Position numbers and translations under genes: made by a program. Below are positions 40,604 to 60,514 of a DNA stretch of 64,000 nucleotides, in pieces (position 1 is the stretch's first letter; every line of letters starts with the position of its first letter). The notes below the pieces were generated by a model. It saw only the letters and a program-made list of their open reading frames with translations, had not been told where the DNA came from and made no database searches. The stretch comes from a virus: IMG/VR virus record IMGVR_UViG_3300032249_000480, positions 40,787-104,786 of that record; one strand, given 5' to 3'.

Positions 40604-40838
40604 TAGTTTAAACATTACCGTAGATCAGGTTAATCATCCACGTCATTACACAACTGATCCTTCTGGTGTTGAGTGCATTGAAATAACACGTCACAGAAAC
40701 TTTAATATTGGTAATGCTTTTAAGTATTTATGGAGAGCAGGACTAAAGGATGAGGCTAAAACAATTCAAGATCTTGAAAAGGCTATTTTTTATATTAAAG
40801 ATGAAATTAATAGACTAGAAGGAAAGTATGTCAACTGA
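40596..40838 (+). CDS. DUF3310 family protein
   Basis: 80 residues from ATG 40596, within the end of the membrane peptide gene. VNHPRHYTTDPSGVECIEI, followed by GNAFKYLWRAGLKD and EDLEKAIFYIKDEI-like helices, is the DUF3310 pattern found in many phages, sometimes called nucleotide kinase-like without proof. Overlaps the terminase small subunit gene by 11 nt. Confidence 0.78.
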   Translation: MSDSLNITVDQVNHPRHYTTDPSGVECIEITRHRNFNIGNAFKYLWRAGLKDEAKTIQDLEKAIFYIKDEINRLEGKYVN

Positions 40839-46320: not shown

Positions 46321-46848
46321 GTGACTTGTATTGCTGTCGTAAAACAAGATCAAACAATTTATATGGCTGGAGATAGAGGTGCTTCAACAGAAGACTCTAT
46401 ACTAATACTTAAGGCTCCAAAAGTATTTAAAATAGGACCATATCTTTTTGGTTATGCAGGAACAATGGACGGAGAAAGAATTCGTCATAACTTTAAACCT
46501 CCAGTACCAAAACCTAATGTTAATTTAGATAAGTTTATGTATACAGATTTTCTTATTGCCTTGAGAAATTTTTATGAGGCATGGTGGGTAGACATATCAA
46601 AAGATTCTGATTTTGGAATGATAATTGCAATTAAAGGAAGAATCTTTGAGCATAATGCAGTTGACATGTCGTTAACAGAATACGAAGAAGAATATCTTGC
46701 AATGGGTTCAGGTAGTGATTTTGCTCTTGGATCTTTATGGACAACTCAAAATCAAAAAAATGGTAAAAGAAGAGCACAATTAGCAGTAGAAGCAGCAGTA
46801 AAATATTCAACATCTTGCATTGGACCAGTTGACGTAGTAAGCCTTTAA
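46321..46848 (+). CDS. HslV/proteasome-beta-like threonine peptidase
   Basis: 175 residues, the length of HslV. It starts MTC, so removal of Met exposes Thr as the N-terminal nucleophile. Asp18 (AGDRG) and Lys34 fall exactly at mature positions 17 and 33, as in the proteasome beta and HslV catalytic set. GYAGTMDG near 49 and MGSGSDFALG near 132 match conserved HslV loops. There is no propeptide. No HslU-type ATPase gene is seen in the window. It probably forms a ring peptidase acting on host or phage proteins with an ATPase or alone. Its neighbour is hsp20. Confidence 0.8.
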   Translation: MTCIAVVKQDQTIYMAGDRGASTEDSILILKAPKVFKIGPYLFGYAGTMDGERIRHNFKPPVPKPNVNLDKFMYTDFLIALRNFYEAWWVDISKDSDFGMIIAIKGRIFEHNAVDMSLTEYEEEYLAMGSGSDFALGSLWTTQNQKNGKRRAQLAVEAAVKYSTSCIGPVDVVSL

Positions 46849-47051: not shown

Positions 47052-47060
47052 TGATATAAT
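47052..47060 (+). promoter_or_regulatory. Extended -10 promoter (TGA-TATAAT) for hsp20
   Basis: TGATATAAT; the predicted start near 47067 begins a leader of about 49 nt that folds into two hairpins. Confidence 0.62.
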
Positions 47061-47066
47061 ATATAT

Positions 47067-47118
47067 GTACTGCCTACGGGGGTACACTAACTTATTCGCT
47101 TGAAAGGGGAATAATATG
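47067..47118 (+). ncRNA. Hsp20 5' leader with ROSE-like RNA thermometer
   Basis: First hairpin: GTACTGCC (47067-47074) with GGGGGTAC (47078-47085 region) capped by UACG, a stable UNCG tetraloop. Second hairpin: UUAUUCGCUU (47092-47101), loop GAA, AGGGGAAUAA (47105-47114). The ribosome binding AGGGG is fully paired and has one G-G opposition and one U-G pair, as in ROSE-type thermometers where the weak stem melts on warming. The ATG follows 1 nt after the stem. Confidence 0.6.
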
Positions 47119-47529
47119 ATGAACGATCCATGGGCCATTTTTAATGACCCTTTTTTTATTGGGTTTAATAGAAACCTAACACAACTAAACAATGTATATA
47201 AAACAAATAACCAATCCTATCCTCCATATGATCTTCTTAAACTAGATGAAGACACATATGTTTTGTCTTTAGCGGTTGCTGGATTTTCTAAAGAAGACAT
47301 TGATGTATCTGTAGACAATGGATCTCTTGTTATTAAAGGAGAGACTGTAGAAGTTACTGATGCTGAAGTGGTTCACAAGGGTATTGCTAATCGTAAGTTT
47401 ACTCGTACATTTGCTCTTGGTGAATACATGGAAGTAGTTGGAGCAGAACTAAAAGACGGTATGTTGACAATTAAGATTGATCGTATCGTTCCTGAAGAAA
47501 AGAAACCAAAAACAATTAAGATAAAGTAG
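47116..47529 (+). CDS. hsp20: Small heat shock protein, Hsp20/alpha-crystallin family
   Basis: 137 residues. Residues 35-130 are the alpha-crystallin domain (YVLSLAVAGFSKEDIDVSVD, then GSLVIKGETVE and GIANRKFTRTFALGE). The GMLTIKI motif near 117 is followed by a C-terminal PKTIKIK extension carrying the I-x-I contact. It binds unfolding proteins, perhaps capsid or scaffold intermediates during infection. The leader suggests translation is controlled by temperature. Hsp20 genes are known in cyanophages and other aquatic phages. Confidence 0.88.
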   Translation: MMNDPWAIFNDPFFIGFNRNLTQLNNVYKTNNQSYPPYDLLKLDEDTYVLSLAVAGFSKEDIDVSVDNGSLVIKGETVEVTDAEVVHKGIANRKFTRTFALGEYMEVVGAELKDGMLTIKIDRIVPEEKKPKTIKIK

Positions 47530-47540
47530 TATAATATAAT
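47530..47540 (+). promoter_or_regulatory. Overlapping -10 boxes before the candidate small RNA
   Basis: Two TATAAT copies share one base (47530-47535 and 47535-47540). A start 6-8 nt later would coincide with the base of the RNA stem. Confidence 0.5.
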
Positions 47541-47543
47541 AGT

Positions 47544-47628
47544 CCCCACACAGGACCTTAGTGATGGATTAGTTACCCATTTATAATGACCGTGGCCTAC
47601 GTGCCTGAATTACCTGTGTGGGGCTTTT
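47544..47628 (+). ncRNA. Candidate structured small RNA
   Basis: CCCCACACAGG (47544-47554) pairs exactly with CCTGTGTGGGG (47613-47623), enclosing 58 nt and followed by CTTTT. The enclosed part can fold ATGG (47563-47566) with CCAT and a small GGC/GCC helix. With the -10 boxes just upstream, the whole reads as an independent transcript of about 85 nt whose closing stem also works as terminator. It lacks T-arm and anticodon features, so it is not a tRNA. No known family recognised. Confidence 0.6.
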
Positions 47629-47636
47629 AATTATTC

Positions 47637-54172: not shown

Positions 54173-54412
54173 ATGGCACTTGGCTATACAGATGAAATGC
54201 GTAAGGCTTTTCATGCAATCCCAGCACCTAAAGGTTTTGGTGTTGATTTAATTGATAATACTTATTTTATTACAATTCGTATTGATGAAAAAGCATTTCT
54301 TTATTTAAATCATGATCAAAAAATGGAAGCATTTGAATATGTTATTAAAGTTCAAAAGGCTTTAGAGGCTTCAGGGGCTGTTGTTCAAGTTGTTAGAAAA
54401 CCATTAAAGTAA
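54173..54412 (+). CDS. Small hypothetical protein
   Basis: 79 residues, alpha/beta: helix (YTDEMRKAFHAIPA), strands (GVDLIDNTYFITIRIDEKAF), then a long helix. It overlaps the glycosyltransferase start by one base (TAATG). No family recognised; a partner of the transferase is possible from position only. Confidence 0.55.
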   Translation: MALGYTDEMRKAFHAIPAPKGFGVDLIDNTYFITIRIDEKAFLYLNHDQKMEAFEYVIKVQKALEASGAVVQVVRKPLK

Positions 54413-55329
54413 TGTCAATATTTATTTCTGTTGCAAGTTATCGTGATCCACATCTTCAACTAACACTTAAAAGTGCTGTTGAAAATGCAAATAATCCTGC
54501 AGGTTTATTCTTTGGTATTGTTAATCAAGATACTGCTAGGAATGAAGTTGATTATTCCTTTTTGCCAGATTATTCTGTAATTAAAATGCATCCAAGAAAT
54601 GCAAAAGGTGTTGGCTATGCAAGAAGCAAGGCAATGTCTTTATACAATGGAGAAGATTATTTTTTACAGGTTGATTCTCATACTCAGTTTTCAAAAGACT
54701 GGGATTTAAAATCCATAAAACAATTAAAGACTGCACAGGAAATTGCAGGACATAAAAAAGTTATAATGTCCTGCTATCCTGGTCCTTATAGTTTAGATAA
54801 TAATCAGGTATTCATACATACAATATCTACAGAAGAACATCCTGTAGAGCCAATGAAGCATATTGCTAAACTAAGAGTTGACGATCAGTGGTCTGCAATC
54901 AGGGTTCCAATGGATAGTCCAAATTCTGAAAGACCAGAACTTTCTAATACAGTTCTTGGAGGATATATTTTTGCTACTGGTAATATTGTAAATGAAATTC
55001 CATATGATGAAGAAATAAGTTTTATGGGTGAAGAAATTTGTTTTGCAATGAGGGCTTGGACAAGGGGATGGGACATATATTCACCATCAATACCAATTGT
55101 TTATCATTTTTATAGAAGGCCAGGATATCCTAAAGTATGGTCTGATGATGTAGTTAGAGAACAGAACTGGGATCAACTTCAAGAAATATCAAAAGAAAAA
55201 CAAAGAAAAGTTTTATGTGGTATTGAACAAGGAATCATGGGAGCAGGATCTATTAGAACTATAAAAGATTATGAAGAATTTATAGGTTATGATTTTGAAA
55301 AAATATATAACAGGTTGACAAACAAATGA
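54412..55329 (+). CDS. GlcNAc-transferase, GT60 / Skp1-type
   Basis: 305 residues. IFISVASYRDPHLQLTLKSA at the N-terminus, ARSKAMSLYNGEDYFLQVDS with the metal-binding D88-S-H90, HTQFSKDWD, and a late GEEICFAMRAWTRGWDIYSP are the signature blocks of the family that includes Dictyostelium Skp1 GlcNAc-transferase. That enzyme adds GlcNAc to hydroxyproline. Here the acceptor is unknown, but P4H-type oxygenases are encoded at 48794 and 60573. No membrane segment, so it acts in the cytoplasm. Confidence 0.82.
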   Translation: MSIFISVASYRDPHLQLTLKSAVENANNPAGLFFGIVNQDTARNEVDYSFLPDYSVIKMHPRNAKGVGYARSKAMSLYNGEDYFLQVDSHTQFSKDWDLKSIKQLKTAQEIAGHKKVIMSCYPGPYSLDNNQVFIHTISTEEHPVEPMKHIAKLRVDDQWSAIRVPMDSPNSERPELSNTVLGGYIFATGNIVNEIPYDEEISFMGEEICFAMRAWTRGWDIYSPSIPIVYHFYRRPGYPKVWSDDVVREQNWDQLQEISKEKQRKVLCGIEQGIMGAGSIRTIKDYEEFIGYDFEKIYNRLTNK

Positions 55330-56194: not shown

Positions 56195-56230
56195 GATAGC
56201 CAGTCCACAACGGGCTGGCTTTTCTTATTT
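56195..56230. terminator. Terminator between convergent operons
   Basis: AGCCAGTCC (56195-56203) pairs with GGGCTGGCT (56209-56217), loop ACAAC, followed on the plus strand by TTTTTTCTTATTT. It ends rightward transcription and may also slow leftward transcripts. Confidence 0.88.
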
Positions 56231-57259
56231 ATTCATAATATATTCGTAACGCTCTTTAAGATTTTTAGGATCAAAGTTAAAACATCCTAATCTAAAGGCT
56301 TCTTTTTTTGCTACTTCTTGATCATTGCTATTAGCATAATTATCAACTAATTCAGCCAACTTAATAATATCAGGCTCATAAACATCAACAACAACTCTAG
56401 CCTTAAATTCTCCTATTTTATTAGCAGGCACCACCCATTCCTCTGGAAGCACGGTATTGTTAGGAGAAATATCAGTCATAAACACAGGAAGACCACTCAT
56501 AAGAGCCTCATTCATAGGCAAACAAAGTCCTCCATAGCGTCTAGGAAGGATTAGAGCGTCAAACCCACTGTATAGGTCCTCTTGATTCTCTAAGTCCCTA
56601 CAATCAATTGTAATGCGTGGATCTTTTATCTCAATATCTAGTGGTTCTTGTGTTCTTATTACCAATTCATAATCAGCCTTGGAATACCTTAACATTTCTA
56701 TAACACTCTCAGTGCCGTTTCTATCTTTTGTTGCTGCCGTACCCAAAATATGCAAAAATCTTTTATGTTTTTTAGATAAATTATTTTCTCTAGCATTTTT
56801 AAAATTGTCTGGATTTGTTGGTGGAGGCAGATGAGTTAGTTTAGTTTGATGACCAAATACTCTTGCAACTTCATCAAAACCCCAAAGACTAGGACTAAGC
56901 AGATGATATGCCAATGGCTTATATTGATCCATCATATTTTCAAAAAATTCATAATTATATTGTTGAAAAGTTTTAACACCATAGCGCCCAGCAAGTGCAA
57001 CAAAATCTTTATGATAAAAAGTTTCGCATGTTAAAATAGCATCTAAACCTTGAATAAATCTTTTGCATGAATTAATATCTGGATAACCATATTGATCTTG
57101 AACGTTATAACCTTCATACCATTCTGGATGTTGTTTTTTCTTTTTAAATTCTGAAAAATCAATAAGCAAAACTTTCTCAGGATTCAACATGTGTACAAGT
57201 TCCCTTGTTTGATTACCAAGTCCACTATTGTCTGATCTTGCTATAATTCCTAATCTCAT
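56225..57259 (-). CDS. GT-B glycosyltransferase (GT4-like)
   Basis: 344 residues from the ATG at 57259 that overlaps the upstream stop as ATGA; an earlier ATG at 57274 is less likely. The N-terminal domain starts MRLGIIARSDNSGLGNQ, typical of sugar-donor enzymes. The C-terminal domain has LHILGTAATKDRNGTESVIE, and LILPRRYGGLCLPMNEALMSGLPVFMTD gives the donor-binding E-x7-E-like region. It adds a sugar from a nucleotide donor to an unknown acceptor. Last gene of a five-gene leftward operon. Confidence 0.8.
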   Translation of the reverse strand: MRLGIIARSDNSGLGNQTRELVHMLNPEKVLLIDFSEFKKKKQHPEWYEGYNVQDQYGYPDINSCKRFIQGLDAILTCETFYHKDFVALAGRYGVKTFQQYNYEFFENMMDQYKPLAYHLLSPSLWGFDEVARVFGHQTKLTHLPPPTNPDNFKNARENNLSKKHKRFLHILGTAATKDRNGTESVIEMLRYSKADYELVIRTQEPLDIEIKDPRITIDCRDLENQEDLYSGFDALILPRRYGGLCLPMNEALMSGLPVFMTDISPNNTVLPEEWVVPANKIGEFKARVVVDVYEPDIIKLAELVDNYANSNDQEVAKKEAFRLGCFNFDPKNLKERYEYIMNK

Positions 57260-58017
57260 TCTGTATACCCCCATGCTTGATCATCTGCAGTAAACTTTCT
57301 TGTTCCTGCTCTGCCATCCAAATGTGCAGATCTTTTAATATTTCCTTCTGGATGATATATGTGTAGTTTGTGCATTTCCCAACCCATTTGAGAAAATTTG
57401 TTATATGGAAGTATATGATCTTGCACTGCTCCATGAAAAGTATCTTCAATAAATTCCCTATCTGGCATTATAGGCAAAATAATATCTCTATAATAGTCAA
57501 CAGTTGTAAGGTGTGGACGCTGACTCCACTGGGCTGTTTCTAAAAATTCTTCATTTAATTTAAACATTAAATGTTTGTGTGGATCAGGAATTGATGCTTC
57601 AAAATGAAATCTAATTGTTTTGCCTTGTCCTCTTTCAATAAAATTAATACATTTATCCCAATCAATTGGCTGATCTGTTACAAGTGGAGCATCTCCTTCA
57701 ACATAAAGCATTAATGGTGTTTTAATCATATTTATTGTTTTAGCCATCATAGTAGTTTGATGTGAAAAACGATCAAAAATTATAGGAAGAAGTTTTGTGT
57801 CTTCATGTAATGCTTTCCATAATATCCTATTTTTATATTCATCATAATCATTTTTTCTATTTTGTCTTTCATCTCTTAGTCCATCAATTTGTATAATAAT
57901 TTCATTTGTTGGAAAATGGTATCTAATTGACCTTAATGTTTCATCAAGAATATGTGTATCAGGATGACTAGGAAGAACAGATGTTACTACAACAATTGTT
58001 ACATCATCTTTGTTCAT
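57256..58017 (-). CDS. Putative GT-A glycosyltransferase
   Basis: 253 residues. VTIVVVTSVLPSHPDTHILD at the N-terminus and LYVEGDAPLVTD near residue 105, an acidic metal-site-like loop, fit a GT2-like fold. A C-terminal block with EDTFHGAVQDHILP may hold the base. Coupled by ATGA to the next gene and by 14 nt overlap to the previous one. Acceptor unknown. Confidence 0.65.
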   Translation of the reverse strand: MNKDDVTIVVVTSVLPSHPDTHILDETLRSIRYHFPTNEIIIQIDGLRDERQNRKNDYDEYKNRILWKALHEDTKLLPIIFDRFSHQTTMMAKTINMIKTPLMLYVEGDAPLVTDQPIDWDKCINFIERGQGKTIRFHFEASIPDPHKHLMFKLNEEFLETAQWSQRPHLTTVDYYRDIILPIMPDREFIEDTFHGAVQDHILPYNKFSQMGWEMHKLHIYHPEGNIKRSAHLDGRAGTRKFTADDQAWGYTE

Positions 58018-58864
58018 TTAGGTCCTCCATTATTTCATTAAATAAATCTCTTTTGAATTTAATCCACCAAGATACTGCCTGATGCATATTGTTTGGATAG
58101 TTACTATATAAGTTTACCATTAAACTTGATAAATCTTCCCAATAATTTACAGATACTATTGGCATTGTTTGCTTAAATAATGGACCAAAATAGTTTGGCT
58201 TTTCGTCTTTTGGTGTTGTGCTATCAACTATTGGATAACATAATAATTCCAAGGCTTCGTAAAATCTAAAAGAATCAAGAACCACTATTCCAGAAGGGCA
58301 GGGTATAAATTTAGATCTAGCCATATTACTATAATAAACATCTGGGATATCTCCTTGTGTAAAGCCTTCAGTAAATTTATATATTGTGTTAGGTATATTT
58401 GGCAACACTTTTGATAGTTGCTTCCTTCTATTATGATTTATTTGACCGCTAAAATATAAATCAATGTCTTTTGTTTTATAGGTTGGAGCGTATTCTTTAA
58501 AATGTTGAGGAGCACCTTGTGGAAGTTTTTTATACTTTTCATGTTTATCATGTGGATATTGTATCCATATTGATGCATTACGATGAGTTATCTTATCTGC
58601 ATCAAACAGCCCTGCTTCATCACCCATTACAAAAAGAACTACTCTTCCTATATTGTTTAATTCAGCAGATATCTTTTCTTCTAAACCTGCATTAGATGGT
58701 CCAGGTATTGCAACAAATGCTTTATCACAATATTCTAATGATTTTACATTAACTTGTTCAATATTTTTTCTTTCACAAAATTCTTTTAAAATGCCATAAT
58801 CCCATTTATTTGCAGCAGAATCTGTTCCTTCAGCAGAATAAAGGTATAGTTTAAATTGGCTCAT
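58004..58864 (-). CDS. Putative exostosin-like / GT-B glycosyltransferase
   Basis: 286 residues from ATG 58864 (an in-frame ATG at 58882 is possible; neither has a clear RBS). Segments DIDLYFSGQINHNRRKQLSK and MARSKFIPCPSGIVVLDSFR, then RFYEALELLCYPIVDS, match the exostosin/GT47-like donor-binding half. It likely extends the glycan. Overlaps both neighbouring genes in the operon. Confidence 0.65.
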   Translation of the reverse strand: MSQFKLYLYSAEGTDSAANKWDYGILKEFCERKNIEQVNVKSLEYCDKAFVAIPGPSNAGLEEKISAELNNIGRVVLFVMGDEAGLFDADKITHRNASIWIQYPHDKHEKYKKLPQGAPQHFKEYAPTYKTKDIDLYFSGQINHNRRKQLSKVLPNIPNTIYKFTEGFTQGDIPDVYYSNMARSKFIPCPSGIVVLDSFRFYEALELLCYPIVDSTTPKDEKPNYFGPLFKQTMPIVSVNYWEDLSSLMVNLYSNYPNNMHQAVSWWIKFKRDLFNEIMEDLNEQR

Positions 58865-59564
58865 AAAGGAAGTGAACCTCATGTTGATAATCTAAATAAG
58901 TTTCCTTATATCCCATGCCCTTAATCCACTGTCTAAGATCATATAGGTATTCATTCCATTGCTGTATCATAAATTCTGGATGACCAGATAGCCAAATCTT
59001 TGGTTTAAATTCTCTCATTACTTTTTCTGCACCACCCAACACACGCCACTCACTGCCCTCTACGTCTAAAGAAATTGCGGTAGGTGGTTTAATACCATGA
59101 TCATAAACACAAGAGTCTATAGTAATTTGACCATAGTTAGCACCCTCAAGATATAGTTCTTTAAATCCATGAGCAGCCTCAATTGTTTGATTAGCCTCTG
59201 GTGGAAATTCGCTATAGTAAATACGAGCAAGATCATTAACTTTGTCAGATGCAAATCCAGGAATACATGCTAATGGCATTTCTAAATTGTTTGCTTCCCA
59301 TAACAAAGGAAAATGAGACCAAACTTTTGGATTAGGTTCAAACAAAACAACTTCAGCACCCCACATTTGGCACAAAGCAGGGAACTCTCCTTCTTCTGCT
59401 CCAACATAGTAAACAACATCTCCATTGCCAAGTACTTCATGCATAGATTTAAGTCTAGGTTTTTCCCACCCATGATCTTGATACCAATCTGGCCTTACTG
59501 CACGATGTTCTGGCAACACTATTTCAAATTCTCCATTGATCAGAGACTTAATCATTTCAGTCAT
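58851..59564 (-). CDS. FkbM-family SAM-dependent methyltransferase
   Basis: 237 residues from ATG 59564, which overlaps the upstream stop (ATGA) and has AAAGGAG before it. Segments DVVYYVGAEEGEFPALC, VVLFEPNPKVW (SAM-binding acidic loop) and TAISLDVEGSEWRVLGGA are FkbM signatures. Family members O-methylate sugars and small molecules. In the centre of a glycosyltransferase operon it probably caps or modifies the glycan. Confidence 0.82.
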   Translation of the reverse strand: MTEMIKSLINGEFEIVLPEHRAVRPDWYQDHGWEKPRLKSMHEVLGNGDVVYYVGAEEGEFPALCQMWGAEVVLFEPNPKVWSHFPLLWEANNLEMPLACIPGFASDKVNDLARIYYSEFPPEANQTIEAAHGFKELYLEGANYGQITIDSCVYDHGIKPPTAISLDVEGSEWRVLGGAEKVMREFKPKIWLSGHPEFMIQQWNEYLYDLRQWIKGMGYKETYLDYQHEVHFLYEPI

Positions 59565-60514
59565 ATCTTTAACTCCTTTAATATAGTTGCCCATCTGTCT
59601 ACATATGTATGCTCATCTATTGTTCTATCATGTCCAGCAAGGCGAATAGACTCTCTTTCTTCGTTATGCTCTAAGTAATAGTCAATTTTATTTTTTAGAT
59701 CTGTAAGATCACCATGCTTGTAGAATACAACTTCTTCATCAGTAAACAAATCATGAAGCCCATCAATGTCAGGGTAGATAGTAAATCCACCACGACCAGT
59801 AGACTCAAACAATCTATCACTTGTATAGTAAGGATAGTTAAACCCTATGTTAAGGCTATCTCCAATTGCAATTTTGCTACGTGCATAGATTCTGTTTAAA
59901 TCATTACCACGCACAGTTCCAGTATCACCATCTCCACCCACATGAAGAAATCTTTTACCATAAGTTGCTCTTAAGAAATCTATTAATTGTGGACGGTATG
60001 GATATTCATGATGATAACGCTTACTACCAACAAAGATTACATCATAGTCAAAAGACTCTCCATCGTAATGGTCATGTAGATAGCACTCTTTACCAAACAC
60101 ACCTGCTGGCAAAAAATGTCCTTTAACATTTGTATTTTCATTAAACCAATCAGACATTAATTTATCTACTGTAAAGAAATGACCAATTGTTTTATAAAAA
60201 TTATCTTTTTCTAAATCTTTTTGACGATCTAAACCAAACCACAAATCAAGATGATAAGTCATTGTTGGTATATTTAGTTCTTTGAGTTGCTCAAGAACAG
60301 TATCCATGCTTATATTTCCTGTTGTTTGCCAGCCATGTGTGTGTACCCAGACAAATAGATCGCTATCTTTTGCAAATCTCAGTATTGTGTCTGTACTTTC
60401 TTGTGCTTCTTGTAGTTTAACTACTTTGTGCCCTAAAGATTCTAGGCTTTTAGCATGATGGTTTTCACTACTATAAGATACCTGAAAGTTACCAAGAAAT
60501 GTTATTGTTGCCAT
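59561..60514 (-). CDS. GT-B glycosyltransferase (CgeB-like)
   Basis: 317 residues, first gene of the operon. The N-terminal Rossmann domain has ITFLGNFQVSYSSENHHAKS and IPTMTYHLDLWFGLDR. The C-terminal half has DYDVIFVGSKRYHHEYPYRP and DRLFESTGRGGFTIYPDIDG, as in CgeB/DUF3880-type transferases, with the conserved Glu for donor ribose. Translation is probably coupled to a 7-codon upstream frame. The acceptor may be phage DNA, tail or a surface protein. Confidence 0.8.
   Translation of the reverse strand: MATITFLGNFQVSYSSENHHAKSLESLGHKVVKLQEAQESTDTILRFAKDSDLFVWVHTHGWQTTGNISMDTVLEQLKELNIPTMTYHLDLWFGLDRQKDLEKDNFYKTIGHFFTVDKLMSDWFNENTNVKGHFLPAGVFGKECYLHDHYDGESFDYDVIFVGSKRYHHEYPYRPQLIDFLRATYGKRFLHVGGDGDTGTVRGNDLNRIYARSKIAIGDSLNIGFNYPYYTSDRLFESTGRGGFTIYPDIDGLHDLFTDEEVVFYKHGDLTDLKNKIDYYLEHNEERESIRLAGHDRTIDEHTYVDRWATILKELKI

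Follow-up and report, generated by a model that had tools for sequence, protein, structure and literature searches.

The analysed window is a 64,000-nucleotide stretch (positions 40,787 to 104,786) of the IMG/VR virus record IMGVR_UViG_3300032249_000480, which is 104,786 bases long in total. It includes a gene for a small heat-shock protein, hsp20, and the region upstream of its AUG contains, in 5' to 3' order, an extended -10 promoter element, a hairpin, a six-base linker and a second hairpin (Table 1). A second AUG directly follows the first, at 47119. An HslV/proteasome-like peptidase gene (phrog_1040, E 1.3e-22) is located two genes upstream of hsp20, at 46321-46848 on the + strand, so that a protease gene and a chaperone gene lie near one another. 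Elsewhere in the window, a glycosyltransferase-like cluster encodes a GlcNAc transferase, a GT1-type protein and an exostosin-like protein (54412-55329 on the + strand and 56225-60514 on the - strand).

Table 1 Features of the hsp20 leader region, in window coordinates.
Feature	Position	Strand	Basis or remark
Extended -10 promoter element TGaTATAAT	47052..47060	+	Sequence
Hairpin 1, GUACU(G)CC-UACG-GGGGUAC	47067..47085	+	Fold; paired changes in relatives
Linker ACUAAC	47086..47091	+	Single-stranded in predicted fold
Hairpin 2 (proposed thermosensor), UUAUUC(G)CUU-GAAA-GGGGAAUAA	47092..47114	+	Fold and enrichment in relatives
Shine-Dalgarno (SD) GGGG	47106..47109	+	Within 3' arm of hairpin 2, 6 nt upstream of AUG
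hsp20, 137 aa small heat-shock protein	47116..47529	+	PF00011, E 2.5e-20; phrog_432, E 1e-38

TATAAT is found 55-63 nt upstream of the hsp20 ATG in 153 of 156 freshwater-clade leaders, and in 150 it is preceded by TGn. The transcript is predicted to start at about 47067, where hairpin 1 begins, about 7 bases past the -10 box. With such a start, the leader would be scarcely more than the two hairpins, about 49 nt in all.

In hairpin 1 (GUACUGCC UACG GGGGUAC), the tetraloop UACG at 47075-47078 is of the UNCG type and is closed by a C-G pair, as is typical of such loops. A single G bulges out at 47072 (U71, G72, C73). The linker that follows varies in length and sequence between relatives. Hairpin 2 (UUAUUCGCUUGAAAGGGGAAUAA) is separated from the AUG by a single U. 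Its anti-SD strand includes the ROSE core UCGCU (47096-47100) with a bulged G at 47098, and in relatives AGGAG or GGAGG takes the position of the window's SD. The minimum-energy fold of 47067-47118 pairs UUAUUC with GAAUAA and sets G98 opposite G108, followed by C-G, U-G and U-A pairs and a GAA loop. Its energy is -14.7 kcal/mol, compared to -7.4 +/- 2.2 in dinucleotide shuffles (z -3.25), of which 1 in 200 was equally good. This fold is identical to the SD-burying stem with a G-G opposition, a U-G pair and a GAA loop that was proposed in the initial annotation, and the UACG tetraloop that was placed in the preceding hairpin is the one of hairpin 1.

Hairpin 2 can also be drawn in another register, with C97-G109, a bulged G98, C99-G108, U100-G107, U101-G106 and the loop GAAA. 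The bulge register is calculated at -4.5 and the opposition register at -0.8 kcal/mol in the natural variant GAAGGAGGAAUAA; the corresponding values for the window's own hairpin are -3.5 and -5.1 kcal/mol. Judging from the relatives, a single bulged G is thus a credible alternative to the G-G opposition, and both registers stand for the window.

Directly past hsp20, between it and a gene for a small HNH endonuclease, lies a non-coding RNA-like element of about 85 nt that is unrelated to the leader (window 47533-47632, + strand). It has the form GTCCCCACACAGGACCTTAGTGATGGATTAGTTACCCA...CCTGTGTGGGGCTTTT, with TATAAT upstream and a terminator-like end, and folds (z -3.16) into an 11-bp closing stem that exhibits compensatory CG-to-UA changes and an inner GAUGG/CCCAU hairpin. 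The top matches (alignment A6; L004, L009, L053, L085, L171, L205 and others) are 82-97% identical to it across about 85-100 nt, and no Rfam match was found at E <= 5. Among 141 copies, the HNH gene comes next in 123 of 125 and hsp20 comes before in 112 of 138 with sufficient flank. The element is a candidate for a new structured RNA associated with the HNH gene.

Scanning IMG/VR with the Hsp20 protein revealed 80 relatives, and nearly all of their leaders repeat the arrangement of promoter, hairpin 1 and hairpin 2. A second scan, independent of the gene, used the 17-base core TTCGCTTGAAAGGGGAA and matched at least 120 stretches. In the collected loci, 215 of 218 instances of this core are located upstream of hsp20, and for the remaining three the contig stops after 3 to 12 codons. 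Distant hsp20 genes, from cyanophages, pelagiphages and others, have leaders that differ in sequence and share the same design.

For a quantitative comparison, leaders were thinned to less than 80% identity, which left 44 viral ones, and were searched for a hairpin that scores at least 6.5 and has exactly one bulged G on the anti-SD strand. Forty of the 44 leaders have such a hairpin over the SD. When the 5' part was shuffled and the SD retained (100 rounds), it was found in a mean of 1.85 and a maximum of 5 of 44, and among the other genes with an SD in these loci it is present in 41 of 1074 (3.8%). The bulged base was G in 40 counts, A in 4, C in 2 and T in none. Around the bulge, 266 of 279 distinct viral leaders with such a fold include U(U/C)GCU (UCGCU 242, UUGCU 24). 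The remaining cores are ACGCU (7), CUGUC (5) and UCGUC (1), and in these the partner strand is altered to match, as in AUAAC(G)CUU...GAGGUUAU and AGAC(G)CUU...GAGGUCU. Two forms are seen among freshwater leaders: clade A, that of the window, with UUAUUC(G)CUU GAAA GGGGAAUAA, and clade B, with CUC(G)CU GAAA AGGAG. Altogether, the element is present in cyanophages, pelagiphages, a methylophage, rhizobial and Pseudomonas jumbo phages and a freshwater actinophage-like lineage. In the Prochlorococcus phage P-HM1 it falls (306-361) inside the annotated hsp20 coding region, which begins with GTG at 308; translation probably begins at the ATG near 359, and the deposited start looks wrong.

Covariance model R1 was trained on leaders from marine and other phages and from one Pelagibacter metagenome genome, with the window's clades left out. 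Its sole significant match in the 64-kb window was the leader (47065..47121, + strand; 28.3 bits, E 1.6e-5), the next best scoring 9.9 bits (E 1.8). Searching 53 freshwater-clade loci at E <= 1 gave 45 matches, located at the leaders, and in E. coli ibpA the model found the correct place with a weak score (13.4 bits, E 0.71). That E. coli sequence was included in alignment A5, from which model R2 was built, so the match of R2 to E. coli is not independent. R2 matched the window leader with 30.5 bits (E 3.7e-5) and the leaders of 20 of 22 named loci, several of which are training members: P-SSM2, P-HM1, Syn1, S-SKS1, S-RIM2, S-RSM4, S-CRM01, ACG-2014f, S-H38, S-8S53, HTVC008M, HTVC103P, HTVC115P, Mosig, C48C1, Melnitz-3, Phosso, Atu_ph07, MIJ3 and E. 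coli. S-TIM5 and Vibrio phage PWH3a-P1 were the only two among the 21 named phage leaders without an R2 match. Across 120 genomes of the Pelagibacter phylum R2 gave three matches, each upstream of hsp20.

The window leader matched no Rfam ROSE family, even at E <= 10. The link to Rfam is through its phage relatives, in which ROSE_3 (RF02523) matches on the coding strand and in the hsp20 leader in each case, with viral scores of 20.9-39.9 bits. The best viral relative is IMG/VR contig L474 (39.9 bits, E 9e-5), followed by methylophage Melnitz-3 (34.1 bits, E 6e-4) and by Atu_ph07, S-SKS1 and C48C1 (26.8-28.0 bits). The RF02523 gathering cut-off of 43 bits was reached neither by the window leader nor by any viral relative, and sub-cut-off matches at E <= 10 occur everywhere in control genomes and carry no meaning. 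We therefore did not file the element under the curated family.

Since plain MAFFT misregisters hairpin 1 in mixed leaders, pairs were counted on a clean seed of 11 sequences (A4) and on A5, a 64-match alignment from model R1 with 58 distinct rows. Four hairpin-1 pairs are compensated in A4. In A5, 93.7% of cells are paired, with both-side changes in three hairpin-2 pairs and in all seven hairpin-1 pairs; for the helix equivalents of hairpin 1 alone, 97.7% of cells are paired and 7/7 model pairs have changed on both sides. Tabulating pair types in hairpin 2 identified both-side changes at -2 to -6, +1 and +2. Compensatory changes in homologous leaders, which the initial annotation had named as the check on its proposal, thus affect every hairpin-1 pair and several hairpin-2 positions. 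The covariation score of A5 is 0.377, compared to 0.109 +/- 0.009 when shuffled and 0.022-0.068 when slid, in an alignment that was fitted to the structure and is biased towards it, and with shuffles that ignore phylogeny. Hairpin 2 is nearly invariant owing to the SD, and therefore the bulk of the covariation signal comes from hairpin 1.

ROSE-like elements are defined by two to four hairpins, a U(U/C)GCU sequence paired with the SD, and a bulged G (PMC11182007, PMC3669281). Fold and covariation give the window leader two hairpins, the SD lying in the last, where UCGCU pairs with it imperfectly. The SD helix includes a bulged G or a non-canonical pair, the bulge being the favoured register in the natural variant, and the downstream gene is an hsp20, to which the core motif is confined. 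The ROSE-like design claimed in the initial annotation is borne out by these features. No run of four U faces the SD, the opposing strand being UUCGCUU, and a fourU thermometer was rejected.

Within the ROSE kind, the closest comparisons are bacterial. ROSE leaders are 60 to over 100 nt long (PMC10474464). The two-hairpin leader of Pseudomonas ibpA measures 61-62 nt; it keeps expression down at 25 C and opens once heat-shock temperature is reached, its hairpin 2 alone being sufficient, and deletion of G39 represses expression and abolishes most of the induction (PMC3669281). Compared to it, the window leader is phage-encoded and, at its predicted length, shorter, its SD is GGGG within an A/U-rich 9-bp hairpin, and its response to temperature is a prediction. 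ROSE_3 resembles the phage leaders in its two-hairpin model, in the unpaired G of hairpin 1 (GAU-G-CC) and in its second hairpin (ACUcGCU / AGgAG), and differs in the scores described above. E. coli ibpA (Rfam ROSE_2, RF01832) has a core, CUC(G)CU / AGGAG, that is identical to that of clade B, although its leader is longer and its gene is bacterial. Phage mRNAs under temperature-dependent structure are known from lambda cIII, SPbeta blyA and Caudoviricetes sigma70 (PMC11182007), but none of these has been described as a ROSE-like element upstream of hsp20, and heat shuts off lambda cIII.

Nearest-neighbour folding at 10-50 C predicts hairpin 2 to be closed throughout. The published E. coli ibpA control behaves likewise, so the calculation is uninformative, and the energy model greatly overestimates the melting points of all leaders, E. 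coli included. At 30 C and above, hairpin 1 of a 79-nt fold pairs with the coding sequence at near-equal energy, which we take as a tie of the energy model. Wild-type hairpin 2 stabilities range from -1.5 to -5.2 kcal/mol and bracket the -4.6 of E. coli, the window being near it at -5.2. Deleting the bulged G in silico stabilises the window's hairpin 2 from -5.2 to -7.4 kcal/mol (a gain of 2.2), that of clade B from -3.1 to -6.9 and that of E. coli ibpA from -4.6 to -8.4 (3.8 each).

We consider it probable that the phage controls hsp20 translation through a short two-hairpin ROSE-like switch in the leader, opened by rising temperature, a reading in which temperature sensing follows from the family resemblance to ROSE. 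Transcription would begin at hairpin 1, and hairpin 2 would hold the SD against its U(U/C)GCU strand, thereby keeping hsp20 translation low. The conserved bulged G would weaken the SD helix enough for it to open within the physiological range; on a temperature rise hairpin 2 would melt, ribosomes would bind and Hsp20 would be produced during infection. The presumed benefit to the phage is protection of virion or host proteins under heat stress.

The main competitor, which we regard as rather unlikely though still to be reckoned with, is an aggregation sensor in which Hsp20 oligomers would bind their own mRNA leader and repress it, unfolded clients would titrate Hsp20 and free translation, and temperature would act mainly through unfolding. 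IbpA of E. coli is autoregulated in this manner: it binds its thermometer leader and represses translation until aggregating clients release it, for which it requires Arg93, positively charged residues at both 97 and 98, and an aromatic side chain at position 34 (PMC10474464). The window's Hsp20 has the equivalents of Arg93, Arg97 and Tyr34 but Thr in place of Lys98. Of the 60 phage and related Hsp20s in the comparison, 57 retain Arg93, and PWH3a-P1, which lacks the leader, has Ser instead; against a tight link, leaderless S-TIM5 retains Arg93 while leader-bearing C48C1 and MIJ3 have Lys, so that coupling would be loose. For the phage leaders, repression would act via the bulged-G hairpins, and any accumulating client, whether heat-damaged or new virion protein, would release it. 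Self-repression and thermosensing may also act jointly on one leader.

An insensitive leader, in which hairpin 1 stabilises the mRNA and hairpin 2 fixes a low translation rate, would agree with the position of hairpin 1 at the predicted 5' end and with energy models that do not open at 10-50 C. It needs no bulged G at the same place, yet one is seen in 40 of the 44 thinned leaders and across two SD registers, and it fails to explain confinement to the gene family known for ROSE; we hold it to be improbable. The leader could instead be bound by a repressor of translation that the phage encodes, for example RegA, whose gene is immediately upstream of hsp20 in P-HM1, S-CRM01, S-RSM4 and ACG-2014f. 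This is very improbable, as the element also occurs beside other neighbour genes (Melnitz-3, Atu_ph07, MIJ3) and in bacterial genomes, and matches ROSE, which is known to work without a protein repressor. Any SD readily finds a pyrimidine-rich partner, but that a conserved ribosome-binding site folds in this way by chance is contradicted by the enrichment and covariation beyond shuffles and by the R1 match, and the probability of this reading is negligible.

The portal and head protease of the source virus are 44-46% identical to those of Streptomyces phages (NootNoot, Yaboi), and Rhodococcus phages also appear among the matches. Large records with leaders of the same clades have the head protease in six of six cases. 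On the basis of these similarities, the virus likely infects an actinobacterial freshwater host. The nearest cellular Hsp20s found, at 40-44% identity, are from Pelagibacter, Rhodospirillaceae and SAR86 assemblies, and some have the same leader; this points to an hsp20 and leader module that phages of different hosts may have exchanged. More tentatively, and with less confidence than in self-repression itself, such a mobile module could serve as an aggregation sensor across host groups, one RNA reading both temperature and infection load.

The ROSE kind is known, and its viral branch appears to be new as far as the open-licence literature goes. Before the sigma70 case, lambda cIII and SPbeta blyA were the phage thermometers counted (PMC11182007), and we found only these three reported in that literature. 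Two studies of cyanophage small heat-shock proteins mention neither leaders nor thermometers, and the same holds for the Melnitz paper, where hsp20 is noted and riboswitches were searched for. With the present leaders, ROSE-like elements extend to an actinophage-like lineage whose presumed gram-positive hosts have no such thermometers in published work. Phage hsp20, a core gene of T4-like cyanophages, generally lies behind a probable ROSE-like switch, isolates included (P-SSM2, Syn1, S-RIM2, HTVC008M). Most of the other phages that we looked at have this device in front of hsp20 too, suggesting that temperature or protein stress governs when many phages make their own chaperone. This raises, for existing strains, the question of whether water temperature sets phage chaperone output and, through it, burst size or virion stability.
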